Source of the DNA: Dillenia suffruticosa
Taxonomy: Eukaryota; Streptophyta; Magnoliopsida; Dilleniales; Dilleniaceae
Direction: 5' to 3'
Length of the DNA stretch: 64,000 bases
Assembly: GCA_033439265.1 (NCBI GenBank)
Contig: JAVTVX010000020.1
Coordinates: 18,742,001-18,806,000, forward strand
Shown: positions 8,118 to 55,568 of the stretch, piece after piece
Position numbering within the stretch: the stretch's first letter is position 1
How the letters are laid out: the number at the start of each line of letters is the position of its first letter
Translations under genes and position numbers: made by a program
Notes under the pieces: generated by a model
What the model was told of the DNA's origin: nothing
The model's input: only the letters and a program-made list of their open reading frames with translations
Databases searched by the model: none

Positions 8118-10146
8118 CACTACAAAAAAATACAATTTTGGTGACGGATTTAGTGACGAAAATTATAGAGAAATTCGTCGCTAAATATTATAGCGATGGA
8201 TTTAGCGACAAAAATTTTTTCGTCTCTAATACGACATCGCAAAAGTTTAGCGACGGAAAAACGAAATTTGTAGCCAAATTAGCGACAAAAAAAATTTCGT
8301 CGCAAATGTCCGTTGCTAACTTAGCGCTAGATAATATCTTTTGTCGCTAAATTTAGTGACGGAGACAGCAGTCCGTTGCTAAATTTAGCGATGGATAACA
8401 TTTTCCATCGCTAAATATAGTGACGGATGCAGCAATCTGTCGTTAAATTTAGTGACGGATAACAATTTCCATCGCTAACCTCAATGACCGACAGAACAAT
8501 GCGTAGCTATTTTTAGCGATGGACTACTTTGGTCGTCGCTAAATTAGCGATGGATTAGTACATCCGTTGCTGATGTTAGTGACGGACTAGACTATTCGTC
8601 ACTAAACTTAGCGACGAAGAGGCCTATCCGTCGCTAACATTAGCAACAAATTGTTGTATCCATCGCTAACCTTAGGCAATATTCAGCAACGGAAATAGTT
8701 AGCCATGGCTAACTTAGCGACGAACCTAGCAACGAATCCAGAAATTCTCTAGCGACAGATTTTGCAATGAATTTGTAAAATTATGAAAAAAAAAATCCAT
8801 TTGTTTTAATATTTTTTCCTGTTTAAGAAACCAAATAAAACCATGTCCAACCAACATTCAAATATCCAATTGAACAAAAAAAATCTATCGGTCACTATCC
8901 AATCCAATATCATTTATTTCTAATCAAATATTCCATTCATATCCAATGGAACCAAAAAACCATTAATGTTTAGCTAGCGAACGTTCATAAAATAAATCTA
9001 CAAATTTTGCAATCTAACAAACATCCATTGAATAAGAGTTTGTGCACCGAACAAAATATGATATATATTTCTTACGTTTTCTTTTATTTTATTATTTTAT
9101 TATTTTTTCTCTTTTATTTTTTTGGAAATCATATAATAGTTTATAAATGGATATGCGCCTATTAGTAATCATCCGTTTCTCTGTCACCATCCTCCAAAAA
9201 CTATTGTTTGATCTACTTGTCAAATGATATAAATCGCCGGACGTGAATATATGATATATTGTTTTCGTTGCTGATAATGATAACAAATAAATATGAATAA
9301 CTAAACTTTTAAGAACAATTGACTATATGAGAAAAACAAATGGACATAGAAGCCAAAAACACATAAATAGTGAACTCGATACCTGCGATCGAGTGAAAAT
9401 TGTTTGTTATAGATTGGTTGAATTATTTATTATTGAAAATTTTCAATTTGGTGAGAATTGTAATATTCACTATATATTTAATTCAATTTCGTTATTTAAA
9501 ATATATTAAAAAAAGATATACGGTTGAAAATATTTCTTAATAGAGTACAGAAGAAATTTAGTTACGAAATTAGTTCTGAATTTTGAAATTTTGATAATAA
9601 ATTAACGACGAATTTAGCTACAAATATCTAATTAGTAACAAATTTTACCACGAATATTATTTTTGTGGCTAATTAGTGATGAATTTAGCCACAAATTTTA
9701 AAGTTCGTTGCTAAATTAGTGACGAATTTAGCGACAAAAAATTTTTGTTATTAATTAGCGACAAAATTTGTCATAAAAATTTTTTATCACTAAATTAGTG
9801 ACGAAATAGGCGATGAAATTTTTTCGTCGCTAAATTTAGCGACGGATTACTATATCTGTGGAAAAATTTAGGCACGAAATTTTTATTCGTTGCTAATTAG
9901 CGATAAATTTTGCAACGAAAAATTTTTTATCGTTAATTAACGACGAATTTAGTCACGAAAAATTTTTCGTCCCCAATTAAGGACGAATTTAGTCACGAAT
10001 GATTTATTCATTGCTAATTTAGCCACAATTAATTTTTTGTCGCAAATTTCGTTGCAAATAGCGACGAAAAAATTTTTCGTCGCTAAATTTGTCCCAAAAT
10101 AGCGATAAATTTTTTCCGTCGCTAAATCTGTGTTTTTTTTATAGTG
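8118..10146. mobile_element. Non-autonomous CACTA (En/Spm) transposon
   Basis: The left end is CACTACAAAAAAATAC; the right end read inward is CACTATAAAAAAAACAC. Both carry the CACTA signature. A 3-bp direct repeat TAT flanks the element (8115-8117 and 10147-10149), the size expected for CACTA. Dense subterminal arrays of TTTAGCGACGAA/GACGGA-like units in both orientations fill about 8140-8770 and 9545-10135, and the middle (8780-9540) is AT-rich. No transposase frame is present, so mobility would have needed an enzyme supplied from elsewhere. Confidence 0.92.
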
Positions 10147-12469: not shown

Positions 12470-13652
12470 ACCGAACTAGAGATGTTATGACACTCGGATA
12501 GTGTCACGAGTACCCGTGACACTACCCAGTCAAGGCTCGAGCTCGGTCAACACGAGCTGAGGTCAAGCTCGACCTCGGCTATTTCTATATCGAGCTTGAG
12601 CCCATATTGTGTCGAGCTCGAAGGTCTGTCGAGCTACCCGATACATGCAAAATTACGTGTATACCCCTATTGTTTTTAACAAATTACAAATAATAATTCT
12701 TGGGTTTAAAAATTTGAAGGATAAAAATGTAATTTCACATTTCATTTATCCAAACCCTTTCGTCATTTCTCATTCTAGATCCTCGATGTGTTCTCTCATC
12801 TCACGGTGACCTAGCGAAGCTCCTCTCGCCATCTCGCGTCTCGATTCTCATCCTTGGATTTTTGAAGTTCAAGCTCTACGTGCGACAAATATCTTGTTCT
12901 CCTCTCCATCGCTGCTCCACTTTCATTACGCAAAGGTCAATTGAAAAGTACTCTCTCTCTCTCTCTCTAGGATTTTTGCAAGATCTGTGAACTCAGGGCT
13001 TTTGTGATTTTTTTCTTCTCCCTTAGGCTTTTGACGATTTGTTTGATGATTCGTTCTTCTCTCACCTTGATCTAGCTCTCAAGTTTTCAAGCATCCCTAT
13101 CTCTATGCAACAAAGATTTGCGAAATGCGACTGTGAGTCATCTATCACTAGTGAAGTAACCGGGCTGGGCCAAGCCGGGCTCGGGCCGGTTCAAGGTCGG
13201 TTCGAGGAACCGCGTGCCGGGCCAACAGCGGTTCCTAGGCCAGTCCGGGCCGTGCTTGGCCGGTTCCCAATTTTTTTCTTGTGGAACTGGCCCGGCCCGC
13301 TAAACCGGAACTGGCGGTTTCGGGCCGGGCTCGGTTCGTTTTTTTTTTTTTTCTATTGCGTTTTTCTAAATTTTTTTGTAACTTTATTTTTTAATTCCAT
13401 TTTAATTTTATAACTCCATTTTTTATAATTTTTTTTAATTAACTTTTGATAATTCACTTGTAATTAAAAATTAGAGACACAAGATTTTTAGAGTGATTCA
13501 ACCGAATTCGGTGTACGTCCACTACCAAGCTTATCACTTGGATTTTTAAATCCACTATTTTTTTTACATTATTTTGATAATTACATCATTTTGATTTTTT
13601 TTTCTATTTAAAATGACTTTTAAACAAAAGAAAAATATTATTATTATTATTA

Positions 13653-15676
13653 TTATTCTTTTTCTTCTTCTTCTTCAACTTCTTGTTCATCATCTTCCGA
13701 GATTTTGATAATTCTTTGCATTCTTTTTTCTGCATCCTTCCAATCTTTAATGCATATTAAAGTTTCTAAAGTGTCGTCCGCTAAATTTGTACGTTTTTCG
13801 GTTAACACTCGACCACCTGCACTAAAAACACTTTCGGATGGTACTGTAGATGCTGGATGGGTTAGTATATCTTTAGCTACTTGGGCCAAAATTAGATAAT
13901 ACGATACATTATTTTTCTACCAACCTAATATATCATATAAATCTACATCATCAAAATCTTCTAATCTAGGTATTTGTTTATATAAAAGTAATTCATTAAA
14001 TGATAATAAAGAAGTTTTTTGTTTTTTTCCTAACATGTGTAAGGCATTAAATGAAAATGAAGATGATTGAATACTATTACTACTACTACTAACTATATTA
14101 TTAGTATTTAAATTATTAATTTCCTTTTCATATAATTCAAATATTGATTGTAAAGTATGATATGTTTGTTGTTTTAAAAAATGTGGGTTAATAGACATTT
14201 CTGATGGAAAAGTTTGTGCAAAACAATCTATTAACATTTCAGCACCTTCAACCTTAACACGTGGATCTAATGCACTTGCAACTAAATATAAAATTAGAAT
14301 TTTTTCATAATATTTTAAAAATTTTGTTTTCATTGAAAGAACAATTTCACCAAATCTTTCTTCATTTTCAAATTCATTAAATATATAAATAATTTTACAA
14401 AGATTTGGTAGCATTAAATGAGTAGTTGGATAATAATATCCAGAAAATAAATTTGTATATAAATAAAAAATTTTCAATAATTTTGTAAGTGTAGATGCAA
14501 ATTCAAAAGCGGTATTATCAATAAAACCATATTCGTAATTTGAATTTGCAAATTCAATTAAAATATTTTGAAAATGAAGAACACCTTGTAACATGTTATA
14601 TGTTGAATTCCACCTAGTGTCACATTCCATTTTAAATTTTTTATATTTTTTGTTATGTAAAATACATAATTATTTTATTTCTTGAGTTTTTACAGCAGAA
14701 TTTCTTATTTGATGAATTAAATCGTGAATAGATTGTAAAAATAGTTCTCTCATTGCTAAACCATCCTTAACACATAAATTAATTATATGATATGCACATC
14801 TAACATGAAAAAAAGTTCCATTTAAAATTATTTTAAAAAAATTTTTTAAACTATTAACCGCAATAGTATTAGCCGAAATATTATCAAAGGAAATAAAAAA
14901 AATTCTATCACTTATTCCATAATTATAAACAACATTTGAAATTATTCTAGCTATATGTGCACCGGAATGTGGAAATTCCCAACATTGAAAAGCTAAAATT
15001 CTTTTTTGTAAAGACCATGAATTATTTATCCAATGACGTGTTACTACAATATAATATTCTTTTTTATGCTCACTTTTCCAACTATTCGAAATTAATGAAA
15101 ATTTATATTGACTAATCATAAATTCTGTAAGTATACCATTTTTTAATTCTTTTTATCTATCTAATGATCTCCTCCCACCGGATTTTTTACTATTTTTTTT
15201 ATAATCGGGTTGTAAATATTTTTGTACATATTTTTCAAATACAGGACATGCAACTATACTAAGTGGTAATTCTTTTCTTGCTAGCCATTCTATTTGTCCA
15301 ATTTTTTCTTTATCCGAATTATATTTAAATGTATCAATTATATTACCTCCCCCTGTAGAAATTTGTGTTTGTTTTGTTTGTGATAATTTATCTGGATGAT
15401 TATTAATTAAGTGTCTCTTAAGTGTGTCTACCCCCAACCTTTTAAAAATTTATATTTTTGATAATAAATTTTATAAATTGCTTTTTGTTCATTATTTTTT
15501 CTTTAAAAAAATGTTCATATATTAAAATCATTTTTTTTAGTTTGTGTTATGTTAGATTCAGTGTTACTAGGTTCAGTTTCTTCCAAAAAAATTTCAATAT
15601 TTATATGATCGGGAATTTCAAAAAATGGAGGAAGAGAAGATTGTTGAGAAGATTGTGAAGAGTGTGTTCCGGCCAT
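13653..15676 (-). pseudogene. hAT transposase (copy 2), lightly damaged
   Basis: The start codon is at 15674-15676 (protein begins MAGTHSSQSSQQ). The N-terminal part (15515-15676) is in another frame from the rest, so one frameshift lies near the BED zinc finger (about 15440-15515). From 15437 down to 13653 the frame is continuous except for three stop codons, at 15153-15155, 14670-14672 and 13917-13919. Recognisable parts are HLINNH (zinc finger end), TRWNSTYNML (about 14600), LDPRVK (about 14255) and the dimerisation region SESVFSAGGRVL (about 13810-13845), then a Glu-rich tail. The stop at 13917 reads TAG where a Trp is expected, consistent with G-to-A decay. Inactive as written, but closer to intact than copy 1. 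Confidence 0.88.
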
Positions 15677-15904
15677 TTTATAAAAAAAAATTAAGATTAA
15701 AATTTTTAAAATAATATATACGATAAAATTTTTTAAAGGAAATTTAAGATTAAATTTTTTAAAAAGAGAATGCAAATGTAATGCAAATGCAAAAAAATAA
15801 ATATGCAAAAAATTTAAATGTACCGATTTAACGAATATCGCAGTTGTTTTTTGTAAAATCTTGAATGAGCTCCCAACATTGAAATCTTCTCAAATCTTGA
15901 TTAA

Positions 15905-16200
15905 TGTAGATAATGGAGTATAAGGTAATGAAATGGTGTAAATTTTGATGGAAATTGTGTAAAATTTGATAGAAATGGTATAAAAAATGGTGTAGGTAAT
16001 GTGGTATAAGAGAATAGAAATGGTGTAGAAATTGGTGGAAATGTAAATAATTGTGGAAATGTAGATAATGGAGAAAATGAAAATGGTGTATAAGATGATG
16101 AAATGGTGTAAAAATTGATGGAAATGGTGTAGGTAATAGTGTAGAAAATGATGGAAATGATATAAAAAATGGTAATACAAAGGAAATAATAATGAAAGAA
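15905..16200 (-). repeat. Degenerate tandem leader repeat of hAT copy 2
   Basis: The minus strand repeats ACCATTTCTATCAAATTTTA-like and related units, matching the array in hAT copy 1. It precedes the transposase start. Its role is unknown; a promoter, a leader or transposase binding are all possible. Confidence 0.65.
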
Positions 16201-16790
16201 TGTAGTAATATTAAGAGAATGTAGATGTGAGAGAGAAAGAGAGATTTTATTGTGGAGATTTTGGAAATAGGGTATAAGGTATTTATAGGAAAATTTTTTT
16301 ACCCTATGGACCAAAATAATCTCAAAAGTAGCCGTTTTATAGTTGTTGGGAGGGGTAAAATTGGAAAAATTTCAAAATTCAAAAAAAGGGAAAAAATTTG
16401 AACCGGAATCGGCCGGGCCGGTTCCGGGCCTGAACCGGCGGTTCCAGTCAATTCAGGCCCGGTTCCGTGCCGGTTCCGGGCCGGTTCCGGGCCCGAGCAG
16501 GTTCCGGGCCGGTTCCCTGTTCAAATTTTTTTGGAACTGGCCCGGCCCGCTACAGGAAACGGTTCCAGGCCGGGTCGGTTTACTGTAGCATGGGCCGGTT
16601 CCGGTTCCGGGCTCTACCCGGGCCAGCCGGGCCGGTTTTCGGGCCCAAACCGGCCCGGTTACTTCACTATCTATCACTGTTCGATATCATTGTCTCTACT
16701 GCAATATCATCTCTTTTAGTCGAAGGTTAACTCTCTCTCTCTTTTCCTCTTTTCAGAAAATTCTAGGGTTTTGCTTCCTATCACTCTTGC

Positions 16791-27482: not shown

Positions 27483-27977
27483 TGTTGGTTATTTATGCCC
27501 ATTATGGGCATTTGGGTAATTAAGGAATGGGGTAACTCCCATCCTTAATTACCATTAACCATAATTTGGTAACCCCCCACCAATAAAGAAAATAGGTCTT
27601 TCCTTCCTTCTTAGAGAAGGCAACAATAGAGAAGGTATCTCTCTTTCCTTGTGAGTGGATAGCAGCCATGGGCAACCATGATCGAGGCTGGAGTTTCATT
27701 GCACTTCTCTAGAGAGAGAAAATAGAGAGAGAGATGAAGATTTTCGTATAGGAAAATCTCCCATCGTCAAGCAAATCACCGGATGTAGAGGGTTGCGGCG
27801 TTGTGACGCTGTGGTGGTGATTCGACCAACCTCATGATCACCATCCCGACCGCGAAATCGGATCAAGGAAAGTGCCGCTTGAAGATTCTACGAATTGAGG
27901 TATTCTAAATCCGATCTATTTTATTTTCCGAAAATTATTGTATGCTTCCACTGCATGAGAATCCTAAAAATCCAACA
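27483..27977 (+). repeat. 5' LTR of copia element
   Basis: Starts TGTTGGTTATTTATGCCC and ends with CCAACA before the primer-binding site. It would hold the promoter and polyadenylation signals of the element. Length equals the 3' LTR with no indel seen. Confidence 0.95.
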
Positions 27978-28539
27978 TTGGTATTAGAGCATACGTTGGA
28001 TTTAATTTAAAAATAATTTTTGGATTTTTTCGGGTATAAAAATATAGGGTTTAAAATTTTGGGGTCCGGATCACGAATGAGTTTCATGAATCCGAGAACA
28101 CCGTAGGAATACCCATGACCCAGGGATTTCAAATATATTTTTTGTTTAATTTTCGGAGCATGGTTGGGCCATGAAAAGTTCGGTAGAAGTTTGCGACCCT
28201 ACGGACATAAAACCCTTAGATCTGTGGCTTTAGAGGGCGGATCGATGCATGAAAAAATTATAAATGAGTTCCTTGCATCTAGATCTACGGTTTTATATAT
28301 TTTATTATGAGTTTTGGGTGCCGGAAACTGGGATTTCCGAATGGCCGCGGAGGGTCGCGACTGGGGTGGTTGAGTCCTACCATTTTTGGGCTTGAATCCT
28401 CCTAAAATCTAGTGTAAGATGTTTGGAGGATGCCCACAAATTTTTCCCAGTCGAAAAATGCAAGAAAAAATAGCCGGATTGGTGTTTTTCAGAAAACGGG
28501 TCGAAAAACCCGTTGTAGGACCCGTCGGGTGAAGAAGAC

Positions 28540-28980
28540 CCGACCCAGACCCGCGGGCGCGTGACACGCACGCGCCAGGAGGTGCGTCTGGCAGGTGCGT
28601 GAAGCAAGGGCAGGTAGCGGTCGGGGTCGTACCATGACCCGGACCGACCCGCAACGGACCCGACCGGGTCGGACCGGACCGTTGACCGGGTCGGACCGAA
28701 CCTGTTGACCGGGTCAGTCGGGTCAACCCTGACCCGTTGACCAACCCGGTCAGACCCGGCTCAACACGGCTCAGCGCGTGAAGGCGCGTAAGCCGCGCGC
28801 CGCGACTGGGCGCGCGTGAGCCGAGCCGTGCCAGGCGTGTGGCGGCGCGTGTGAGGCGCGCCTCGCGTCTGGCGCGTGCGGCAGGCCGCTGCCGGCGCGT
28901 GGAGGAGCGTAGCGGAGCGTGGATAGCGCCGCCGGCGAGCCGCGGCGCGTGTGGGCCCCGGGCGGCTCGTGAAGTCGCTA
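28540..28980. repeat. GC-rich leader of copia element
   Basis: A stretch far richer in GC than the window, made of two parts: irregular repeats around GACCGGGTCGGACC (28640-28750) and GCGCGTGAGCC/GGCGCGT words (28770-28970). It lies between the primer-binding site and the gag region. The long open frame antisense to it looks like a by-product of GC-rich sequence lacking stop codons. Confidence 0.7.
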
Positions 28981-29069
28981 AAAATTGAATTTTTTCAATT
29001 TTTTGGGGTCCTATATCCATAAATATGACTTTTTTGTGGGTTTTTGTGTGCAGAATCACAATCCAAATG

Positions 29070-32000
29070 GTAAGATGCGATTCCAAGTTGTGGTGTATGG
29101 TGTCCGTTGACTCATACGCTCGCTTTGGGGTCGTACTCAAGTCATTTTGGTCTTGATGATTCGTAGGGCGTACAAAAATATGATAATAAGCATCTCCAAG
29201 TCACAAATGTCTCTCTTAATACGTTGAGAACTGTCGTATTAAATTTTTGCAAGGAGAGTAAACTGAATGATGTGATCTGCGCGATTTTATCAATAGATTC
29301 AGTTTATTCTCGAGAGACAAAATCTAACGGGAATCTGAGACACGAGATGATGGACCCCAGGGTGGGCACCGCGCCTCAGGGTATACGAGATAAAGAGATC
29401 TATTGTGTATGATATAAAAGATTTGTCAAGTTAGGGCAATGCTTATCAGTGGCATATACGATGACTTAATCTTGTTTTTCGAGTCATATTCTATTGACAT
29501 GTCGGTTCGACTCGTCCCATAAGAGCATAGTGTTGCTCTCTTCGGTTCCTATGTGAGAATACAGAAGAAAAGGGTTAATCATACAATGAAGCAAATGTCG
29601 AGTATGATCACCGAGTTAATATATACGGACGAACAAATTTTTGGATGGAATTAAGGTACTGGATGTGATCCGGTTTTTACCTGATTCATGGGAAATCATG
29701 AATCCTATCTCACATTTGACGAAAGTATTCGTACTTTCGTTGACGTGAATACATATTGTGAGCTCGATGAGGAGCACCTAGACGCGAGTAGGCCACACTC
29801 GAGTCATGCTTATTCAGAGGAGTCGAGTAAGGACTTTCCCGGCGCTAAGCCAATAACATAAGCATGCGAATAAAACTCGAGATCTAGGTAATAAAAATCA
29901 TCCGAGAAAACCGACAACGAGGTACAAGAATGCAAGAAGAAGAAATTTGATTAGACCAAAGAAATTGCTACGTTTGAGGTAGATTTGGTCATTTCGCTCG
30001 TGAGTGTGACGAGTAGAAATAAATATCCTTCTTCTTTACGTGGTTTGAGATTTGTCTCATTCACTATAATACTCGCTGATTTCTCTCCTTTGAAATCAGG
30101 AGCAACCGACCACGTAACTCGAGATAAGAGTGCGTAATCCGTCAAATGAATCCTTAAGCTTGGAGGATTTACGTTAAGAACAGAGCATTTGTCGTTGTCA
30201 GAGGGAACGACACTTGCCATGACATTCTTAATACTGTAGGCATTCGACGAATCTACAATTAGTACCTTGTTTAAAATTGACTAGGATATGCATGAAATTA
30301 TTCCTTTCTTTTAATACGATAATTTTCTAAATTATTCTGGTTTTAATCCATGATGGAATGTATGCACTGGGTGCTACTCCTTCTAATGGTTTCTTGTCGT
30401 TCTACTATTGTCTTTATATCTGATTGCGTAGATGATGATATAAATGAATGACATAGTAGACTTAGACAATGGGGTAAGAGATGATGAATCGGTTAGTAGC
30501 GAGAGCTTTATTGGACCCGTTGACCACATTCGAGTTACCTGTATGTAAGTTTTGCCTAGCCGGCAAAATGACGAGAAAACCATTTGGCAATGCAATGAGA
30601 GCTGGGACTCCATTGCAATTAGACCATTGTGTCTTCTTTTTCTAGTGGTCTTATGAGCATGAGAGCTAGAAATGGAGTTGTGTAGATAATTATAGACGCT
30701 TACATGCGTTTCGGTTCATCTATCTGATCTTGCATAAATCTGAGGCATTAGCAAAATGGAGAATCAGTTAGATATGAGAGTAGAGACTCTCAGAACCGAG
30801 CGATAACGCAAGTATTCGTGTAAACTACACATGAGGCTCTGTTTCGAGAAAAGTTTTACGAGACTACTGACTATTAGTTAGTTTCCCATTTGAGCTTTGG
30901 ACAGGGAGACAGCCTGACCTTAGCCACTTGAGGTTATGGGGTTGTGCCACGATTTCTCGCATTCACACGGTGAGTTAGACCCGCGAGAAAATATGTGTTC
31001 CTAGGCGAACACGAACGGCACTATAATCGAGATTGAGTCTTGTAATACTATATTTCTTGAGAATGATTTCCCTAAGAGAGATGAAATCAATTTGGACCCT
31101 ACCCTTTATGCGATGAATGAGCTTAGTGGCTCGGGAAGCCCAGCGGCGGGATACAAGAATCCACTACGAATCTTGACCTCAGTGGGAGCGATCCATCAAG
31201 AGGTAAAGATTTTTTCTCTCCTCCTAAGAGTGTCGAGAATGCGTATTTAAACGTTGTTTCTCGATTGAGGGTGAGACCCTCGTTGCGACTCTAGAGGATG
31301 ATGAGAAATCTAAAACGGTCCGAGAGGCTCTCGAGAGTTTTACAAAAGATGCAAAATACCGTTTATTGAAGGTCATAAATGAAGAGAAGGAATTGATGAG
31401 AATCAATGGGGTCTGGGACCTAGTTGATTAGCTTGAGGGCGGAATGACTATTGGGAACAAGTAGGTTCTCAAGATCAAGATAAAGGTTAACGGATTGATG
31501 AAGAGGTAAAAGACTCGTCTAGTAACCAAGGGTTACACTTAGACTGAGAGGTGGACTATCGAGGAGTCATAGTCCAATTTATCTCGATCCGTTTATCTTT
31601 CAGCGATTGTCACGAACATGGATCAGGAGTCACATCACAAGGACATAAAGACCGCTTTCGTAGTAGAAGTCTAGATGAGGCGATCTACATTGAGCATCCC
31701 TCTGGGTTCGTTCTAGTAGATTAGGTGGATAAGGTCTATTGATTTTAGAAATCAAAATACGACCTTAAGCCATCATCTAGACAGCGGCGCTTGAGATTTC
31801 ACGAAAATGTGATATCTTATGGTTTTGTAATGATCGAGTAGGATCATTGCAAATATCTGATACGTCCCGATGACTCCTTTATGAGCATGTTCGCATATGT
31901 AGGTGACATTCTGTTGGCTGGGAACAACAGAAAGTATCCAATGACCATTGTAACATGGTTATGAGGTTTTAGTTCATTCTCAGATTTTGGATCCGTAGGG

Positions 32001-32870
32001 ATCGCTTGAGAATGGTGTTGACTCTTTAACAAGAGTTTTACATCAGGTAGATTTTTAAGCATTTCGAGAATAACGAACACAACCTAAAAGATACTCTTAT
32101 CGCTAAAGGTAAAAAGATCTGAATCTTGACACATGCCCTAGAATTTATAAAGAAATAAGGGAGATGAGTAGAATCCCTTATTCCAGTGCAAAATACATTT
32201 CTAGTGTATGCGATGAGGTATACACGTGTGATATATAGTTTGATGTATGCGATGAGGCATACATGACCAGACATTTATTTTATGGTAGATCTGGTGAGTA
32301 GGTATTAATAGAATCCTAGAAGGGATCACTGTAGAGCAGTGAAAAAGGATTCTGAAATATTCCATTTGAACTGCGGACCTCTCCATGTGTTACGGATGAG
32401 GTAATTTGCGTCTGGGATTCAGATACTGACTGGGAGTAGTGATCTGAATAAACGCAAAAGGTTTTATCTTCTTAGAGCAGTAAGAAGAGAACATGTATAT
32501 CTCTATTTACGATAGAGACTGAGTTTGTAGTATGCTCAATTACAGTTCATGAGAATGATTGGCTTCAGAAATTTTCTGGAAGACTTAGGGGTCGTGACAG
32601 ATAGTGGGAGGTCAGTGATGATTATTGTGATAATCAGACCGACACTGTGAACAAATGAGACCCTAAGTATAATAGTAAATCTAAACACATTGATACCGAA
32701 AACCACTTTATGAGAGATATTACGGAGAAGGGTATTGTGACATCTAAGTACACCTTGAAATACAACATAAGAGCTGATCTCTTCAGAAAACCCGTTGTGA
32801 GAGATTCCTTTATGAGATAAGGAATTATTGGGTTTAGTGTACTTTAACATTTCTCCTTATATACTGTTTT
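29070..32870 (+). pseudogene. copia gag-pol remnant
   Basis: No continuous frame survives, but the copia domain order can be read in pieces: gag with RFLPDSWE (about 29670-29695), a His- and Lys-rich decayed zinc-knuckle region (about 29870-29960), reverse transcriptase from about 31400 (VWDLVD, VLKIKIK, TRLVTKGYT, MDQESHHKDIKTAF), its catalytic box at 31896-31907 reading YVGD instead of YVDD, and RNase H to about 32820 (DLGVVTDSG, then ADLF). Integrase should lie between about 30200 and 31100 but is not clear. Stops and small indels are frequent. Loss of the catalytic Asp alone would make the polymerase inactive. Confidence 0.82.
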
Positions 32871-33984
32871 AGATGTTTATTTTAATATATGACATGTATG
32901 CATTATTGGGTCACATATTTATTTCATGCATCATTTATTGTCATATATTGTGATCTTGTGATAAAAGATGTGTCAAGCAGGCGTGGTCGACTCTCTCACA
33001 CGAGTGACTACCTCCGACTCTGAGTGAGCGGAGATGAGACAGATTCTAGTCGTAAGAGGCTTTGAGAGTAGCCTTATTAGAATATAAGTCACCCTAATAT
33101 GTGTTCAGGATGAGGTCATATGCGATATGACCGACATGGAAATACCCACATCCATGTTGCCTGTAAGTAGCCAGGTTTGAGATCTCAGATATCACCTGCG
33201 ATTAGTGATATTGTCTCTGAGATGCTCTCTCTGAGATCTCTGGGTAAAATCTTATGTGTAAACTGAGTCCCGTACCTGTACAGTATTAGAGAAATCTGAC
33301 ATATGCCCTTTGAGAGATGGGGGAATAACACTGTGGCACGTGTTTCATACCACGTGTGATGAGACGACCATGGGACAGTGGGAGCTATTATTTGAGACGA
33401 CAGTTTGATCTTGATCCTCGTTCCCACTGTGTGAGATTTGAGATCCATTGGGTGGGATCTCTTATGCCCTTATTACTTTCGGCTGTCTCTAGAAGTTTTG
33501 GTTCAGTGTTGCTACTTTAGTCTGTTTACCTATGGCCCAGAATATAAATTGAAGTCTAAGGGGCAGGTTTAGGAAAACAACTGAATTGAGACCGATAGAT
33601 TCGAGTTTGGGAAAAGGAAGATCAATAGACATTACATCATTGTCATGTATTCATAGGTCGACCTATTGTGTTAATCCATGTTGGGATTCAAACATAATAA
33701 TGAATACATAGTCGAGCAAATTGATTAGGGATCACTTTCGATGAGAAAAGTGGCTCGATGGATGTAAATGCATTGAGTCTGGGGTATAGCGAGTTATTTT
33801 TATACTAACAGTGACTACTCGATCATCCTAATAGGTGTATCGAGAAGTCTTTGCTTGCAGGTGCACTCGCCGGTCGCACGACGCCCAATCCAGTATGAAG
33901 GTCCAGTAGGGTGATGTGATAGATCGCATGAGTTGCGATCTTGTGATTGACGGAAGTGAAATGCCCTTATGTGCAAGTGGGAGA
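32871..33984. other. Non-coding 3' region of copia element
   Basis: About 1.1 kb between the RNase H remnant and the 3' LTR without a recognisable gene. This is long for a copia element and could contain an extra, now unreadable, segment. Confidence 0.5.
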
Positions 33985-34479
33985 TGTTGGTTATTTATGC
34001 CCATTATGGGCATTTGGGTAATTAAGGAATGGGGTAACTCCCATCCTTAATTACCATTAACCATAATTTGGTAACCCCCCACCAATAAAGAAAATAGGTC
34101 TTTCCTTCCTTCTTAGAGAAGGCAACAATAGAGAAGGTATCTCTCTTTCCTTGTGAGTGGATAGCAGCCATGGGCAACCATGATCGAGGCTAGGGTTTCA
34201 TTGCACTTCTCTAGAGAGAGAAAATAGAGAGAGAGATGGAGATTTTCGCGTAGGAAAATCTCCCATCGTCAAGCAAATCACCGGATGTAGAGGGTTGCGG
34301 CGTTGTGACGCTGTGGTGGTGATTCGACCAACTTCATGATCACCATCCCGACCGCGAAATCGGATCAAGGAAAGTGCTGCTTGAAGATTCTACGAATTGA
34401 GCTACTCTAAATCCAATCTATTTTATTTTCTGAAAATTATTGTATGCTTCCGCTGCATGAGAATCCTAAAAATCCAATA
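33985..34479 (+). repeat. 3' LTR of copia element
   Basis: Same length as the 5' LTR, with about 13 substitutions by eye and no gaps. The last bases are CCAATA where the 5' copy has CCAACA. Confidence 0.95.
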
Positions 34480-35746
34480 TTATGTATGTATGAAAGTGTG
34501 CGTGTGTGTATGTGTATGTTTGTGTGTATATGTCAGTTCAATGCGATGGATCCCATCTTTTTTAAGTTGCACTTAAAGTTTAAATCATTTGTGAATTTGG
34601 GATTTTGGGGGAAAGAAAATATAGGCCTCAAACCATTTATGAGTTTAGCGAAGTGGTAACATAAGTAAGACAATAATTTTAGTAATATCATAATAATTCA
34701 AATTTATCTTAAGAAATAAATTGCTATTTTAATATGTAAAGACTCGAAAGGGCCATTCCTATTAAATTATAAAATGAAGTGAGTGCAGAGAAAGGATCTT
34801 TTGGTTGGGATCTGTACAGCTGCAAAAAGATGGACAGATTAGGTTATATATTTATGTACAAGTATAAAAGAGTTAGAGGTTATGGATTTATGAACTTAAA
34901 TGTGGTGGGACCAAATCCACCTTGTGCTCCCTTCCTTGCATGCAGATTACCAATTGAGACCCTTAATGCCTACATCTACGAAATTAAGATTTCGCAAATT
35001 GGAACTTGATTTGGGCTATGGCATTCAAATTATTAAGGTTGGTCATTATGTTCTTTTGGTTTACTTGTTTATTTTATTAATTCTTTCCGGATTTAATAAT
35101 CTCAATTTCAAATATTTATACAAAAAAAAATTCCCCCGCAAAACAATACATGCCCATGAACTCCTAAACTCAAAAAGGGGGGAATCAAAGATGTAAAGAG
35201 AAAATCAAATAAAAAGGGAAAAATTAAAAAACGAAAATAAAGACGCGCCTTCGATATACCACTTATTGTGTCCACGATAAACACTGGGTAACCAAGTGTA
35301 GAGCGGATAACTATTGAAAATATCTAAGTAGTAAGCTCACCCCGGATTACTTCCGGTCATTTTAAAGAGTAAATGTCTTTCTTATGAAAAAAATTCTTGT
35401 AAAAATATTTTATGATCCAATGTATCTTATTAATTAAGATAAAATCATAAAAAATTGTAAAAACTTTTGTTTGGATATCCTTCGGCTCATAAACTTATAA
35501 GAAAAATATTATGAATAGAATACTCATAAAAATTAATAATTTTCCTTTTTATTTTCTTGAATATAAATTAATTTAAATAGTACAACTATTTTTGACCCCT
35601 AAAGAGCCATGTTCATTCTCTTTAAAAGCCTTGACGTTAAAGCTAGTCCCACAATTTGGTGTTGCATTCTCGTCACCAAGTCATCAATTTGAGTTAAAAC
35701 TAATTAATTGTTTGTAAAATCAGAGAAGCAACAGTTGTTTTTTTTA

Positions 35747-45905: not shown

Positions 45906-46904
45906 TGTCTTCTGATTATGATGCCACTTTACTTTATTCTTGTTATTTCCTTGCGCATTTAAAAGTGCTTGAGCCTTTAGGGCACTTTCATCAATTCATG
46001 AACGGCATGCCAAAACTCTCTCCTTTGGATTTTTGTGGGCTTTTGTTATTCTTATCGTCTTGTGGGGTACCGGAAATTGCATCAATAAGGCACCGAATTT
46101 TGAGCCCTGCCCTTGTTATCATCTGTTTTACCTGAAGAACAAGTTTGATTTTTTTTTTAATTATTCAATCTTCTTTGTTTTTTTTGGGCACAAATCAGGT
46201 TTTTTTGGGAAGAATTTCATTTCTTGATTATCTTCAACTTGTTCTCTTCTTTTAGGGTATTTCTCTGTGGATTTTCTGTCATAGGCAAATAATATATATA
46301 AAAAATAGTTGAATTCCTTCCTTTGAAATTGTTCTCTTTGTATAATCTTATACCAAATCATTTTGTTGTTCTCTCTAAACCCTTTCTCGTTGTCTTTATG
46401 CAATGTTTATTTTGTTTGAATCTCTCTTATGAAGTGTGTCTGGGTAGCTGCTCCGATAACTAGTGTTTCCTTGTGTGCATTCTAGAGAGTGTAAGGCCAA
46501 CCTAGAATATTATGCTATTCAGGCCTGTGTGCACTATACTAATGCAGTTGAAAGCATAGTAATTAGAATTTTACGTTTTGATTTGATTCAAACAGAAATA
46601 TATTTGGTCCAAATAGATGAATCTTAATCATATAAAAATATTACAATTTGAATTCCATTTATGAATCGAATCATATGATTCCATTCGATTCAAACAAAAG
46701 TACCATGATGGGGAGCCAATAGTTGGAAGCCCCAGATTGTGCAAAGGTCACGGACTCATTTGTTGATGATTTGGGAATTTAGTTAAATTAGATGTTCTCA
46801 AGGCATGCCAAGGATTTGTTGAGGGAATGCTTTAGGGCAACATCTAGTTGTATCCAGTTGAGGCTGCCGCATTGTGGTATGCACCTGGTCATAATGTGTG
46901 CTCG

Positions 46905-49530
46905 CCTCAAGTGTTGAAAGAAAATGTATTGTAGTGTAATGATATAACACAAAATGGTGACCTAATGTACAAGATTTCCACTATTGTTAAATGTCGGAGG
47001 TTGTTTAAGTGATATGAACCAATGATATGAAAGCGCAAGAGAATACTAACTAATGAGTCCACAATTTACTTATACTCAAAAATATGATTAGAAAAGGTTT
47101 TGATCAAATTAAACATTGATAATTTATTCAGAAAAACCAAATTCAGTAAGAGAGATGTGGGTGAGAGAGATAGAATTTAATCTACTAAATAATTAAGTAT
47201 ATATTAATCAAACCCCAAATACTTAAAATTATAGAGAAATTTTATCTTGAAATGTCTTACACTATTTTAAAAACTCCAAATACTTAAAAATTCGGAAAAA
47301 AAAAACCTGTTTTACACTATTCTGAGTTGTCTTTATGAAATTTTATCTTCAAACATTCAGAAAAGATATAGTCCTCCTATAATCCTATCCCTCTCTTTCC
47401 CCAGAAAAATAAATGAATACATGATTGAATAATATCATGCTATAGACATTGCTTATTAAAATATTCTACTCAATTAGTAATAACGTCTAAACTATCATAT
47501 AAAACTTGCATTTACATTTTTCTCGGATTGTTAACTTACAAAACTATTGATTTCTGTCATCATGAATTGCATCTACTCCTAGAATTGAGTATGCTGCTCT
47601 TTTAATATCCACATTTATTCTTCTTGAGTAGCAAATTTATCACTCATAGTTATACTTTGAACCTCTGCTTCATCTGCTCTTTCTCTCCGCTACAATTTTC
47701 AATTGAAAATTTTCAGATGCTACAATCACTTTCATAGGAGCAACCTCTCTTAAGATATTACGAATATCAAGCAACGTTTGCATATAAATTTTTGCAGGTG
47801 AATTTGATGACATAGTTTTTTTCATTACGCAAGTCATCCTATAGAACAGAATAATTTGTTATGTGACAAAAATATACAAATTGAAAATCTAAAACTATTT
47901 GAATTGCAAATAATAGTAGATACCAAAATTTGTTCAACTTTATCATTGATCATTTTTCCTTTTTTTGAAAAATGATCAATCTAGCATTAGTCAATTGCTG
48001 GTAGTTTTTTTTCTTCATTCTTTTTTTTTCACATGTTCATAATCACGATAGAATTGTTATACTATTGTGCAAGTTTAATGAATGAAAAGAAAGAAGATAA
48101 TAAGGAATAAAGAATAAGTTGTGAAATGCTAACCACATTATCAACCACTCTTGTAATCGAAATAGATCCAACTGTGGGTAGAGTAACATTAATTGCACGA
48201 TTTTGAATGTTTTTCATATTCATTTTCTGTTAATTTTAAAAAAGAAAATCAAAATAATGAACTCAAATAAGTTTTTTATTATAAAAAAAATGAGAAAGAA
48301 ATAATGATATGACTTGAATCTGAAAGTCCTCACGGGTAAATTTATCAAATAATTTCACCTAATCATCCATCGGTACGTTAAGTGAAAGATTTTTCACAGC
48401 CTTTTCTTTGGATGTGAATTTCCTGAAATAAAAATGCAGCTTATACTGCATGTTCTTGTGCTAATCAACCAATTGTTTTTGAATGACACTCTATTTTTGT
48501 GCTGTCATCATAATTCGAACTCTCCTTCAAGAATAGAAGAAAGACATTATGATATTTATATATAACGTCAAATAATCATACAAATTAATTACTGTATATT
48601 CACCTAATAAACTAACAATATTGTACCGTATATTTGCTAATAATATCATTCTTCAATTCTTTTGGTTGGTGTTTCCACGTTATGTCATCAAATTTGGCAA
48701 ACTACTACATAATACAGTCACCCTTTGTGATCAACTCTTAACTATTTTCTTTTATTAGTCGACCGGCATATTCATCTATTTCAATAATAATTTTTTTATC
48801 GGATGCTTTTTTTTGCTTGAGCCAAATTTTTAGTGACTCCTCATCGTGTATGTGTTTAGGTAAATGTTATTCAATATAAACAAATACTAGTTATCCACTC
48901 AAATATAAAAACTCATATGTATTGATTTTTGTTGTTAGAATACATCTCGAGAAGTTTAACTAATATGATCTTAATGTTCAGAATCCCCTTCAAGTTACTC
49001 TTTTGCATTGATCTGTTGATCTAATGCTAAGAAATGAATCTCAGTACGGTCATGTATGTCGGCACTCAAATTAAGTAAGGGTTTAACTCGGCTCTATTTA
49101 GAATTATTGGAAAGTAGTGATATCTCTTATAATGACTCATCTTCAATGTTAATATAATAAGTGGTGTGTTTCTTAATTGTAGTGAGTCATGCACTCATAC
49201 GAAAATAGGGTTGCGACAATAGTAGTATTTTACCAGCAGTCTTTTTTCCCAGAGATCCTTCATTTCTTCAAACGAAATGAACAGAGATAAAATTAGACCG
49301 ATTTCCGAAATGTCTTTTTGGATACTCCTCAATATTCCAACTATTAGCAAAACGTGTGAAGTAGATAAATGATTCATCTACCATTAGAAGGGGTTTTTGT
49401 TGGAATTCTTCTTTGAGAAATTTGTTAGGCATCCATTAAATAATAGTAAATAGTAGTTAATGAAAGAAAGAAAACAAAGAATAAAAAATTATAACAATCT
49501 GAATAGTAAGTGTTTTTCCTTGTGTAGATC
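46905..49530 (-). repeat. Left arm of large CACTA-derived inverted duplication
   Basis: This arm reads, on the minus strand, like the arm at 49602-52165. Paired landmarks are TGTCATCAAATTTGGCAAACTAC (about 48685) with GTAGTTTGTCAAATTTGATGACA (about 50503), and GTGCAAGTTTAATG-type flanks further out. Identity looks like 70-80% by eye. It holds a decayed copy of the same protein region (KKIIIEIDE on the minus strand, about 48790). It lacks the CACTA terminal repeats that follow the right arm. Confidence 0.85.
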
Positions 49531-49601
49531 GATCCACACATGAAAAAGCGTTTGCCATTCATATTGTTATAATTTTTTATTCCTTGTTTTCTCTCTTTCA
49601 A
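49531..49601. repeat. Spacer of the inverted duplication
   Basis: About 70 bp between the arms, itself a partial extra copy of the adjoining right-arm sequence (TTGTTATAATTTTTTATTCC). The right arm next to it contains a further small duplication of TTATTTATTACTCTTTAGTC (about 49680-49765). The centre is therefore a small cluster of repeats. Confidence 0.75.
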
Positions 49602-52165
49602 GATCTACACAAGGAAAAGCACTTGCCATTTGGATTGTAACAATTTTTTATTCCTTATTTTCTCTCTTTCAGTAACTATTATTTATTACTCTTTAGTCCA
49701 CACAAGGAAATATTTCTTGTTTTCTCTCTTTCATTGATTACTATTTATTACTCTTTAGTCGATGCCTAATGAATTCCTTAAAAAATGATTCTAACATAAA
49801 CCCCTTTTAGAAGCAGATGAATCATTATCTACTTCTCACTTCCGCAAATAGCCGATATATTGAGAAATATTCAGAAATGTATTTTGGGAATCGGTCTGAT
49901 TTTATCTATTTTCATTCCATTTGAAGAATGGAAAGATCCTTAGGAAAAATGTTACTGCTAAAGTACCACTATTGTTGTAACCCTATTTTTGTAGGAGTGC
50001 GCGATTCACTCCAATTAAGAAATACATCACTTGTCATATTAATATTTAAGAGGAGTCATCACATAAGTCATCACAAGAGATATCACTGCTTTTCAATAAT
50101 TCCTAACAGAGTCGAGTTAGACGTTTGGTTAATTTGAGTGCTGACATACATGAATGTATTGAGATTCACTCCTTAATATTAGATCAACAGATCAATGTGA
50201 AATGATAACTTGAAGGGGATTCTGAACATTAAGATCATACTTTTTCAACTTCTCGAGATATATTTTGACCACCACGATCAATGCATATGGGTTTGCATAT
50301 TTGAGTGAATAATTAGTATTTGTTTATTTTGAATAACATTTATCTAGACACATCTATAATTAGGGGATTCATTAGAAATTTAGCTTATGCCAAAAGGATG
50401 CGTCTCAATAAAAAAATCATTGTTGAAGTAGATGAATGTGTTGATTATCTAGTAGGAGAAGATAGTCAAGAGATAATCACAAATGGTGGCTGTATTATAC
50501 AGTAGTTTGTCAAATTTGATGACACAACGTGAAAGTATCAATCAAAAGAATTGAAAGATGATATTATAAGTAAGTGCATGATACAATATTGTTAGTTTTT
50601 TAGATGGATGTATAATAATTAATTTGTATGATTATTTAGCGTTGTATATATCATAATGTCTTTATTCTATACTGTAAGAAAAATACAAATTATGATGGTA
50701 GCGCAGAAATAGAGAGTATTATTAAAAAATAATTGGCTAATCAACATAAGAATAGATAGTGTAATCTGCATGTTCACTTGAAGAAATTCTCATCCAAAAA
50801 GAGGCCGTGAAAAATCCTCTACCTAATGTTTGAATGGATGATTGGGTGAAACTGTGATAAATTTACCGGTGAAAACTTTCAAGTTCAAATTATTTTACTA
50901 TTTCTTCCTATTTTTATAAGGATAAAATTTTGTTCAGGTCATCATTTTGATTTCTTTTTATGAAAACTAACAGAAAATGAATATAAAAAACACTTAAAAT
51001 AGTACAATTAATGTAACTTCATCCACAATTGGATTTGTTAGTATAACAATTCTAACATGATATGAACATGTGACATAGAATAAATGAAGAAAAAAAATGA
51101 TAAGCAATTGACCAATACCAAATTGATTATTTCTTAAAAAAGGACAAAAATGATCAATGATAAATCTAAACAAACTTCGATATTATTTATTATTATTTGT
51201 AATTTTAATAGTTTTAAATTTTCAATATATATGTTTTTGTCACATAACAAATTATTTTGTTTTGTAGTATGATTTGCATAATGAAAATATCACGTAATCA
51301 AATTTACCTGCAAAAATTTGTATGCAAAAGTTGCGTGATATTCCAAGACACCTTAAGGAATGGGTTGCTCCTACGAAAGTGATTATGGTATATGAAAATT
51401 ATAATTGGAAATTGCGATGGAGAGAAAAAGAGCAGATAAAATAGAGGTTCAAAATGTAACTATGAGTACCAAACTTGCTGCTCAAAGAGAAGAAATGCGG
51501 GTATTAAATGAGCAGTATACTCAATTCCAGGAGTATATGCAGTTTATGATACCGAAAATCATTCATTTAATGAGTTAGCAATTCGAGAAAAATGTAAGTA
51601 CATGTTTTATATTGTAGTTTAGAGATTGTTATTAATTGAGTAGTATTTTTTATTAAGTAATGCCTATAGTATGATATCATTTAATCATGTATTTTTTTTT
51701 TTTGAAAGGGGAAGGGGGTAGGATTAGAAGAGAACTATGTTTTTTCTCGATATTTGAAGGTAAATTTTCACAAAGACAATTTAGAGTAGTGTAAATATAT
51801 TGTTTTTGGGTTTTTAAGTATTTAGAGTTTTTAAGGTAGTGTAAAACAGTTCAAGATAAAATTTCTCTGTGTTTCTAAGTATTTGAGATTTGATTGTTTT
51901 ATACTTAATTATTTAGTAGATTAAATTTTATCGGTTTCTTTTCTTACTTCTCTTATTGAATTGGTTTTTTTGAGTAGATTATTAAAGTTCAATTTAGACA
52001 AAACTTTTTCTAGTCATTTTTTGGATATAAGTAAATTTTAAACTCATTAGTCAATACTCTATTGGGATTTCATATTGTTGATTCACGTCACCTAAACAAC
52101 CTTTAACACTTAATAATGGTAGGAGTTTTGTACATTAAACCATCTTTATGTGTTATAACTATTGC
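49602..52165 (+). repeat. Right arm of large CACTA-derived inverted duplication
   Basis: Reads as the reverse complement of 46905-49530. Together with 52166-52769 it forms the 3' part of a CACTA element on the + strand, ending in the terminal repeat. The arms are head-to-head: coding direction runs outward from the centre in both. Confidence 0.85.
50340..51560 (+). pseudogene. CACTA transposase-region remnant (Transposase_24-like)
   Basis: Fragments read RLNKKIIVEVDE (about 50400-50440), KELKDDIISKCM (about 50545-50580), HLKKFSSKKRP (about 50775-50805), and further broken pieces. Order and wording resemble the plant En/Spm (Ptta, Transposase_24) protein: a basic stretch, a conserved acidic strand, a KELKDD-like helix, then a His/Lys-rich segment. 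Stops and frameshifts are numerous. The assignment rests on motif memory plus the CACTA end downstream; only a profile search would settle it. Confidence 0.55.
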
Positions 52166-52769
52166 ATTACATGACATTTTCTTTTGAGTTTGATGTTGAA
52201 TTAATATATTTGGTATTTTGTGTAACTATTTAGTTATTTATGATATTGTGGTTTTTTAATGTTAATTTCATATAATTGATATAAATTTTTTTCTTTTTCA
52301 GTGATATATCGTAGAATGTTTCAAGAAATATCTACTAATCAAGAAATTCGTCACTAAAGTCATCGCTATTGTATTGCTCGACATATTTTTAGTGATGACT
52401 TTTTTCATTACCAAATCATGTCACTAAAATTAATCATGTGCAAGTCATTTTTGTTGACTATTAATTTAGACACCAAACGTTGTTACTAAAAGCGTTGACC
52501 AAGTTACTTTTAGTGGTCATTTGGACTTTTTAATTATCATCATGGTGACAACTTTTTTGTCACTAATTTGATGACGAAAAAACTTTTGATCACTAAATTC
52601 GACCCTTTAATGATAACTTTTTACATTTGATCACTAATAATCTTTAGTGATGGAACATTAGTGACCATTGAGTCACAATATTTTTTTTTGTCATTAAAGT
52701 GTTTTAGTGATCACAATTGAAACTTTAGTGATCAAAACGCTTTCGTCATTAAAGGCTTTTTTTGTAGTG
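52166..52769 (+). mobile_element. CACTA 3' end with subterminal repeats
   Basis: The right terminus read inward is CACTACAAAAAAAGCC (52754-52769), the CACTA signature. From about 52350 to 52750 the sequence is filled with TTTAGTGAT/ATCACTAAA-type units in both orientations, the subterminal array. The matching left terminus was not found, so the locus cannot move as a unit. Confidence 0.85.
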
Positions 52770-52794
52770 TCTTATGGTTATGGTCAATCATATC

Positions 52795-53129
52795 TAGGAT
52801 TGGCAATTGGGAGGGGTCAACCCAAGCTCGGCCAGTTTTGAAGGGTCGAGCTAGGGCTGAGCTTGGCTCGTTTCATGATCGGGCCGAGCTCAGGCTTCTT
52901 TTTTAGGCCCATTTTAATTATAGGCCGTGTGTGGACCAATGGGCTTGACCCATCGGGCCGAGTCTTGTCCGAAATAGACCCGAGACCCTTTTAATTTTTT
53001 GGGCCAAGCTCGAGCCTTGGTCCTTCGAGTTTTCTTGAGCCGGGCTCAGGTCGGGCCCATAAAAATTTAATCGGGCCAAACTTGAGCTTCGCAAAGTTTG
53101 ACTTAAAAAAAGCTTGATTGCTACCCGTA
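52795..53129. mobile_element. hAT-type MITE, 335 bp
   Basis: The ends TAGGATTGGCAATTG and, read inward from the right, TACGGGTAGCAATCAAG follow the plant hAT pattern TAGGGTTGGCAAT. A perfect 8-bp duplication ATCATATC flanks it (52787-52794 and 53130-53137). The interior is rich in GGGC/GCCC and GAGCTC/GGCTCG words and has no gene. It lies 25 bp beyond the CACTA terminus. Confidence 0.88.
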
Positions 53130-53137
53130 ATCATATC

Positions 53138-55568
53138 TCTGTAATTGTGCTAATTATGGTCACAATATTACTCCATCACAAATCTTGTCACTGACTCTGG
53201 GATATCAACATGTGGACCTTATGCTGTATGCTGCTCTACCAGCCGCGTGTCGTTAGCACTTTAGTATGGCTGATTTGTGCGCTCTGTGTTGCTTTGCCGA
53301 TTTGGAGGCTAGCAAGAGCAAACTCCTTAGGCTTTTTTGGACGTAAATCTTTTTGTCTTCTTTAACCGGAAGGTGGCCTTTTGTTTTTAATTTATTCAGT
53401 TAACATCTGTCTAAACAAGGTGAAGGCAGAAGTATACATGCATGATTTGTGGGCTTGGGGCCTTAGGCTTGGTGAATTTTGTTAAAACAGGTTAGGTTGC
53501 AGAAGATACTGGGGAAAGTCCTTGCCATTGTAGACATATAAACGAGTAATGCCTGGTAAATGTACCGTCTCTCCTATTTTTTTGGAGTCCTTGTGTAAGT
53601 TCTGGTTTTAATTATATTTGAACTGGTTGGTTGCAGATTCTGATTCCAAATAGTCTGCTTTTTGAGAAGAATCCTAACTTTTGGAAACAATCAGCTTCTC
53701 AGGTAAAATATTTATTTTCCTTTTTTTCTGGTCTTCTTGATGCTCATTGAGCTGGAAAATGATCGTAGTTAGCTTTGTGTCAACATCTTTGCCTTCAATT
53801 TTGAGGGCGGCAAGAATGTTAACATTTGACCACCTATAAGAGGATTGCTTTTGACTACACTTTTGCATTTGTTATTATTATTATTTTTAATCTAATTTTG
53901 CTAAATCACCCTCTTCCATTTGTCATTTAAAGATTATGTTTGCCAAAATCTCTTCTATGCACTTTAGTGATTTCTGGGTAATTGCTGCTTCACTGTAATC
54001 TAGTCAACTAACCACCATGCTTCAAAAAAGAAAGAAAGTTGCAGAACAAGTAGAACAATTAAAACTCATTTTTCTTTACCCTAATAGTAGTACCCCTTTA
54101 ATAAATGGAACTAAGTAATGGAATGGGCATAATAATTCTCATTTTCTGTCAACCCATTGTCAATCATATTTATTTTCCTTAAAATTTACACTGAACGCTC
54201 TTATATTTACTGTTGCACCATGGAGAGCATGGATGGCTGCATTTAGGAGGTTTTGCTCCATTTAGGGCAAGAGTTTGGAACCTCTGTTTGAATTAGAGTT
54301 TGTTCCTCATTTAGTCAACCAAGTATCTCGTTATATATTATAATTTAAAGTCTAGTATGTATTAAAATTAGTAGATTTATTTTAGAATTTATGACACTTA
54401 AAAAAAAAGATTTATTAGCTAATTAGGTTTATCATATTTTGAAAGTTTTTTTTTTTTTAATTTTTTTCCCTTGTAATATTGAATGATTTATAAATATTTA
54501 TTAATCACCTTTTTTTTTATACACACTAAATGATTATTTTGATTTTATGAAGGTGTTTGGTATATATCTTAGGGAGTACTTTTAGGTTTTGGCTTTCCAA
54601 ACAAGGGGTGTTTGTTGACTCCATTTTTCTTTATTTGAATATTAGTATTCAAAAATTTGATTAATTCAATTCGAACAGTTGTGAGATTCAATTTATGAGT
54701 TGATTTTCTCAATATCAATTCTTCTATTTTCAAAAGTAGTGTTCAAAATATTAGTCATGAAGTCTGGTGCTCTACCGTTAGATGATCTTAGGACGTTGGT
54801 GTTTGATAACTCCTTTGACAGTTGATGAAAACTGATTGTCCAAAGGTTACAAAAAGACACCAGCTATCCGAAGTAACATTGACGGTTGGGTATTTTTTTT
54901 TTAATTATTTAACCCACCTATATTAATATTAATAAAACCAAACACTAAAATTAGTGCTAATAAAGTAAACTGTGTAAAATTTCGTCTTTTCTTATAAAGT
55001 CATGTTATATAATTATTTTCTTAATAATATCTATTTAAATTAGTTATTTCTAAAAAAAGGTTTGAATATTTTTATTATGAATTTTATATTTCAATATATA
55101 ACAATAAATATTTTTAAAAAATAAAATAGATTTTGTCATTTTTAGTCAATTTATATATGAATAGCAATTCAACCAGACTCTAATTTCAATTGAAAACAAC
55201 AATCGGCTATTGGTTATCTGCCATAAGTGATTAACTGAATTTCATTAGTTAAATCAAATAGATCTTTAGTTTATAATTGAATTTTGTACTAGTTTGAAAT
55301 TTTATGAAAATTTTAATTTAGATATCTTATTTAGAAACTTTAATTCAATTAATGTGGGTGAGTTCATGAGCGGATTTGAATTATTTGTAAGTTTAACATG
55401 AGTCGAGTCTGAATTGCACCGAGCTATCAACTGTGACTGTTGTATAAATTTTACAAGCACTAGACTGGGCTGGGCTGGGCTGCCAAGATTTGAGAACGAA
55501 GCTCCTTGATGTTCAGTTTATCAACCACTCTTGCAACAGTGATTTTGATTTCATCTGGGCTCATTAGA
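53138..55568. other. Intergenic DNA with one possible orphan exon
   Basis: Mostly AT-rich and unassigned. The single noteworthy piece is the splice-flanked 66-bp open segment at 53637-53702, listed separately. Confidence 0.45.
53637..53702 (+). other. Possible orphan exon, 66 bp
   Basis: A pyrimidine/G-rich acceptor ending TTGGTTGCAG precedes, and a donor GTAAAAT follows, an open segment of exactly 22 codons (begins ILIPNSLLFEKN, ends KQSASQ). No neighbouring exon was found. It could be a relic of a displaced gene, part of a non-coding RNA, or chance. Confidence 0.3.

Follow-up and report, generated by a model that had tools for sequence, protein, structure and literature searches.

A head-to-head inverted duplication of a CACTA 3' half with plastid filler, a likely scar of old double-strand-break repair

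The locus and its palindrome

The window was a stretch of 64,000 nucleotides of the Dillenia suffruticosa genome (C20:18742001-18806000), and the genome searched comprised 596 Mb in 37 contigs (C numbers). Two genes, both on the + strand, frame the locus. The upstream gene ends about 6 kb before it and is presumably bHLH-like, judged by a motif and by exons placed by eye. The downstream gene begins about 3.8 kb after it and matched glycosyltransferase family 2 in Pfam; we take it to be CSLC-like. The locus had been placed between two genes, and these two do flank it, but at about 4-6 kb they are not close. The features of the locus are as follows.

46696-46926, +: left flank, 79.7% identical to C17:17419372-17419610
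46917-46926, +: 10-bp microhomology AAAGAAAATG at the left junction
46917-49530, - (element orientation): left arm, short of the final 585 bp at the CACTA 3' end
46927-49251, -: 5'-truncated CACTA 3' half, left arm
49254-49379, -: plastid piece 2 in the left arm, from ycf2, encoded on the opposite strand
49386-49499, -: plastid piece 1, left arm, 89.5% identical to C23/C14
49531-52184, +: right arm, with the axis at 49530/49531
49531-49672, +: 71-bp tandem duplication beside the axis, confined to the right arm
49711-49806, +: plastid piece 1 (spacer upstream of psbE), right arm, 89.6% identical to C23/C14
49810-49939, +: plastid piece 2 in the right arm, from ycf2, encoded on the opposite strand
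49942-52184, +: 5'-truncated CACTA 3' half with coding remnants, right arm
52185-52769, +: CACTA 3' terminal region beyond the palindrome; subterminal repeats seen by eye
52757-52769, -: CACTA terminus CACTACAAAAAAA
52770-53758, +: right flank, collinear with C17:17435691-17437104

An earlier note, made from the letters of the window, had described two mirrored arms of about 2.6 kb around a spacer of about 70 bp, spanning 46905-52769. Comparison of the window with itself and a gapped alignment agreed on the inverted duplication, with arms at 46917-49530 (-) and 49531-52184 (+), 0 nt between them and a join at GATC/GATC. Two inverted blocks were found, 46917-48064 with 52184-51039 (bit score 945) and 48166-49483 with 51034-49711 (bit score 1043). 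At the axis, 49453-49530 and 49531-49608 match inversely over 78 nt (82% identity) with a gap of 0 nt. The extent held from 46917 onwards, but 46905-46916 is flank, outside the palindrome. The spacer disappeared: the segment taken for it, 49531-49601, is the first unit of the 71-bp tandem duplication and itself matches the left arm inversely.

The arms are 81.1% identical over 2475 aligned sites (K2P 0.226), with 346 transitions, 123 transversions and 38 gap events, and identity is uniform lengthwise (0.777-0.838 per 250 columns). The divergence of 19% supported the view that the event is old.

Transposon and plastid sequence in the arms

The right arm extends 585 bp further than the left, up to CACTACAAAAAAA at 52757-52769. 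With up to two mismatches allowed, CACTACAAAAAAA was not found between 41129 and 51256, hence not near the left arm, and the observation that only the right arm carries a CACTA terminus was borne out. The region 52185-52769 had 48 matches in the genome including itself, some places giving two rows. At the insertion site, the check for a 3-bp target duplication showed that the right flank starts with TCT, likewise at C17, and that the left element end is lost.

Two core arm pieces used as DNA queries matched seven loci beyond the window, of which C11 has three, C12 two, and C1 and C27 one each; about 20 kb around each locus was compared. All seven relatives are single-armed, with the left and right arms mapping onto one stretch in each. 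The outer arm part as query found C27 again and four short matches (three on C29, one on C19); in the 3-kb loci around these, both arms also map to one stretch. The copies at C11:8.305 Mb and C27 reach the CACTA 3' region with their last bases eroded, and neither of these two (C11c and C27) has an exact CACTA at the 3' terminus.

At C11:8.33 Mb, Pfam detected a fragment of Transposase_21 (TNP2; E 7.9e-16) that has the orientation of the core and lies about 2.5 kb upstream of it; at C27, a Transposase-associated domain (Transpos_assoc) was detected 0.7 kb upstream of the core. Because a CACTA terminus is present here and TNP2 lies upstream in a relative, the family is CACTA, and we identify the arms as its downstream half. 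We read the coding remnants as those of a downstream ORF, putatively of Transposase_24 type, that would resemble plant Ptta/En/Spm proteins. No credible Pfam transposase domain was found in the arm frames and pieces (9 + 3 proteins, best E 0.094), nor in six pieces of C12a and C12b (best E 0.05, not credible); all of these pieces are interrupted by stops and frame changes. Three other upstream ORFs in relatives (L021:581-1117, L011:723-1070 and L011:2312-2704) gave nothing credible in Pfam. A Transpos_assoc match at L009:4785-5258 was set aside: about 2.5 kb past C12b on its 3' side, it could be part of a different element.

A 58-aa piece from C12b, searched as one coding segment, gave five genome matches among the best candidates scored. 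Two of them are the arms, at 50416-50586 (+, right arm) and 48621-48791 (-, left arm), which confirms that the coding direction runs outward from the centre. Each of the five matches has at least one stop, so that this segment has no uninterrupted copy among them; an intact CACTA relative, which the earlier note had suggested looking for, did not emerge from it.

Within the window, a second CACTA-like element was observed at 8118-10146, with CACTACAAAAAAA as its left end, CACTATAAAAAAA as its right end, TAT on both sides and many short inverted repeats in its interior.

The arms had been read as CACTA sequence. This was correct for the CACTA 3' half, but about 230-240 bp of each arm near the axis is plastid DNA. 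Outward from the axis, either arm consists of about 31 bp, plastid spacer, ycf2 and the CACTA core, which starts at 49942 in the right arm and at 49251 in the left arm. The innermost 31 bp or so on each side (49500-49562, GATC-ACACA...) had no match outside the locus at the sensitivity of the genome search used. In the right arm, the 428 bp closest to the axis match C23 (74,751 bp), C14 (105,000 bp) and six chromosomal places (two on C8, one each on C15, C17, C37 and C35). Two of these six were examined, and both contain Ycf2 (Pfam; best E 6e-89 on C8 and 2.6e-20 on C15). C23 and C14 are identical over 3,096 bp, a stretch that carries psbE (Pfam); only psbE and their small size led us to regard them as plastid contigs. 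By eye, trnW, petG, psbF, psbL and psbJ presumably lie near psbE there, and we take piece 1 to be the petL-psbE spacer.

The Ycf2 domain in the left arm (E 2e-9, 35.8 bits) lies above the curated threshold of 29.2, and that in the right arm (E 6.8e-6, 24 bits) lies below it. Piece 1 has further matches in the right arm at 49563-49608 and 49628-49697, and the plastid spacer is thus partly tandem-repeated there. With Ycf2 in both arms and piece 1 from beside psbE, the sequence near the axis is identified as a NUPT.

Both arms have the same junctions between plastid spacer, ycf2 and CACTA. Three of the seven relatives reach the plastid-CACTA junction (C12a, C12b and C11), and they have other sequence there. 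This common chimera shows that the arms descend from one sequence. When the arms were compared with the plastid copy over 114 comparable sites, with 62 gapped columns set aside, the left arm had 10 changes of its own and the right arm 12, and 2 were shared. The pre-duplication share of time is 2/13 (95% interval 2-45%). As only 2 of the 24 changes are shared, the duplication would have followed soon after plastid capture.

Comparison with the family gave two kinds of result. In a nine-copy alignment, the arm-arm K2P of 0.246 falls within the single-copy range of 0.200-0.290 (17 pairs with at least 200 sites), and the tree is near-star with supports of 21-74, in which the arms are not sisters. 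The arms have diverged as freely as unlinked family copies. When four copies were compared, 53 informative sites paired left and right arm against C12a and C12b, vs 31 and 27 for the other pairings; with transversions only, the counts were 3, 0 and 0, the three pairing the arms. The divergence and the ungrouped arms in the tree would suit two separate related CACTA insertions that landed head to head. Such a pair of insertions is nevertheless very unlikely: the two arms share the plastid filler and its junctions and meet with no spacer between them, the four-copy site patterns group the arms together, and the common chimeric junction nearly refutes it. Assumed substitution rates between 1.3e-8 and 3e-9 per site per year gave an age estimate of about 8 to 38 million years.

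Insertion site and origin of the duplication

A locus on C17 is collinear with the flanks and has no palindrome; its interval consists of 16 kb of other DNA. The right flank matches C17 on the same strand in three pieces, 52770-52795, 53129-53260 and 53265-53758, at 92%, 76% and 71% identity. It departs from C17 by a small inserted element at 52795-53129 and by about 700 bp that are extra on C17. A relative of the CSLC-like gene lies downstream on C17 at 17450443, in the same order, with 93% identical amino acids in the best stretch.

The small element at 52795-53129 has an 8-bp direct repeat, ATCATATC, on both sides (52787-52794 and 53130-53137). It is missing from the collinear C17 locus, where ATCATATC is single. 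From its 8-bp duplication, the element might be a hAT.

Palindromes are generally known as a class of assembly artefact. A false palindrome would be near identical in its arms, but here 19% of sites are different and 38 gap events separate the arms, and both flanks match one collinear C17 locus; we give an artefact next to no probability.

At the left junction, AAAGAAAATG is common to the C17 flank and to the reverse complement of the right-arm end. A rough probability of this match by chance is 2e-5 to 5e-5, calculated from base composition only, and the match is likelier than that in the A-rich junction. The locus thus combines 5' truncation, plastid filler, an inverted duplication with zero spacer, microhomology, and a collinear C17 locus without the palindrome. 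A rearrangement produced by microhomology-mediated break repair would be recognised by microhomology at a junction, by filler and by a homologous locus that lacks it, and all three are found here. We consider it likely, with good confidence, that the locus is the scar of an old double-strand-break repair at a CACTA insertion, now decaying.

The order of the repair steps may be inferred as follows. A break would have occurred within the CACTA element, and the gap would have been filled by plastid DNA. The broken end would then have been copied in inverted orientation, by fold-back, sister-chromatid fusion or template switching, until the copying ended where AAAGAAAATG matched the left flank. 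Afterwards the arms would have decayed independently, chiefly by C-to-T changes, with no detectable constraint on their pairing. For this reading, the 16 kb of other DNA in the C17 interval mean that the empty site is not preserved there base for base.

It could also be supposed that a palindromic CACTA with two 3' ends moved as a unit, with termini once on both sides and the left end lost later. The outer side of each arm is the element's 3' side, and the right one is complete, as such an element would have it. We regard this as most improbable, because no second palindromic copy was found among the seven relatives, the left arm stops at the flank microhomology, and the missing 585 bp used as a query found no second match beside the left arm.

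The repair scar resembles complex NUPT insertions that serve as filler in break repair, in that short plastid pieces from separate places are joined end to end. Complex NUPTs are described as typically having microhomology of 1-7 bp at the edge of the organelle DNA, a hallmark of such insertions (PMC6215612). The scar differs from them in that its filler is enclosed, together with half a transposon, in a large inverted duplication, and in that the 10-bp microhomology is at the transposon-flank junction. An inverted copy, junction microhomology and a complex join are also found in templated inverted duplications and in microhomology-mediated break-induced replication (PMC11724301, PMC2621351). 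The templated inserts of yeast are reportedly mostly about 5-34 bp, in contrast to 2.6 kb here. A literature search for break repair with plastid filler, microhomology and an inverted copy together gave no paper, and other searches showed related mechanisms; this is no claim of absence from print.

The scar would be a datable example of how a structure like the maize Mu killer can arise, by breakage, organelle filler, inverted copying and exit at microhomology, in which the plastid pieces serve as a clock for the order of events.

The question of a silencing hairpin

The earlier note had proposed a natural hairpin similar to Mu killer that could silence the CACTA family. In such a locus, read-through RNA would fold across the axis and be diced into silencing small RNAs. 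Mu killer is an internally deleted, partly duplicated transposon (maize MuDR) in head-to-head inverted arrangement at one locus, and in these respects the locus described here is similar. In Mu killer, both outer ends are the mudrA-side TIR, two partial mudrA copies are present, and silencing has been shown genetically (PMC3440606). The same paper disputes a model of flanking read-through and leaves a possible contribution of a long hairpin. Here, by contrast, the outer sides are the element's 3' side, so that the arms face the opposite way; one end has been lost, and the arms, which contain plastid DNA, differ by 19%. An inverted duplication of transposon coding sequence is present in the form of coding remnants. 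The arms are not close to each other and to a target (81%; few 21-mers), and the outer ends are not both a transposase-side TIR.

Several observations would suit such a hairpin. RNA of 46917-52184 was predicted to fold as one hairpin, with 2156 of 2198 pairs formed between the arms on the + strand and 2102 of 2153 on the - strand; one control stretch gave 113 of 1765. With G-U pairs allowed, 89% of aligned sites pair in the + stem, where 24 uninterrupted stretches reach 21 nt, and 87% pair in the - stem, with 12 such stretches. With Watson-Crick pairs only, these values are 81% and 4. Hairpin transgenes with mismatches or G:U pairs are still processed and silence well (PMC9263138), which means that mismatch in the stem does not by itself exclude function. 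The antisense strand of those engineered hairpins perfectly matched its target (PMC9263138), and this counts against the hairpin here.

The arms also lost more C/G sites to T/A than single copies did, 22-25% vs 17%, counted at sites unanimous in the other copies. The difference was 82/366 vs 117/676 in the first setting (p 0.048) and gave p 0.003-0.025 in three other settings, all four p values being uncorrected. The transversion share was 0.021-0.024 in the arms vs 0.022-0.023 in three settings, and 0.028 vs 0.022 in the fourth. This excess is a weak sign that the inverted repeat could have been methylated more heavily, but most of it comes from the right arm, and the single copy on C1 equals it at 24%. 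A strand skew of transitions (197 vs 149, p 0.011) was considered as a hint of + transcription and was dropped, as it faded when the changes were polarised (82/315 vs 58/283, p 0.12).

Against the hairpin, the arms diverge like unlinked copies, indicating that arm pairing was not conserved. Exact 21-mers shared with any of the seven relatives number 49 of 2584 in the left arm and 24 of 2624 in the right arm; with up to two mismatches, 627 and 569 match. The searched 58-aa coding segment has no uninterrupted copy among its five matches, and the recognised flanking genes are about 4-6 kb distant. Taken with the free drift of the arms and the few exact 21-mers, this left the proposed Mu killer-like role without backing: it is possible but unsupported, and we regard the hairpin as unlikely. 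A large inverted transposon duplication between genes is by itself no evidence for a silencing locus.

In a variant of this idea, C-to-T decay would have given G-U pairs in the + transcript, so that the RNA could fold fully while the DNA repeat was broken up. The CACTA family that such a hairpin may have silenced would by now be inactive in this genome, and the hairpin's chloroplast pieces (ycf2 and the psbE-side spacer) would have been diced too. In engineered hairpins, breaking up the DNA repeat in this way avoids self-silencing. We consider the variant a long shot for this locus.

Other repeats were observed in the window and near a family member. Another potential inverted pair consists of two hAT-like copies at 1163-4853 and 13167-16658, with about 8.3 kb between them; they match in two blocks at 73-83%, and a hAT RNase-H domain lies at 13917-14669 (Pfam). 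At 27483-34481, two direct repeats of 497 bp, 97.4% identical and 6.5 kb apart from start to start, begin with TGTTGG and probably delimit a young LTR retrotransposon. Near the family member at C11:8.33 Mb, an inverted pair of 2.37 kb (L010:1-5003) is 98.7% identical with about 260 bp between its copies; this inverted repeat is much younger, and ORFs of 679 and 1194 aa lie in or beside it.
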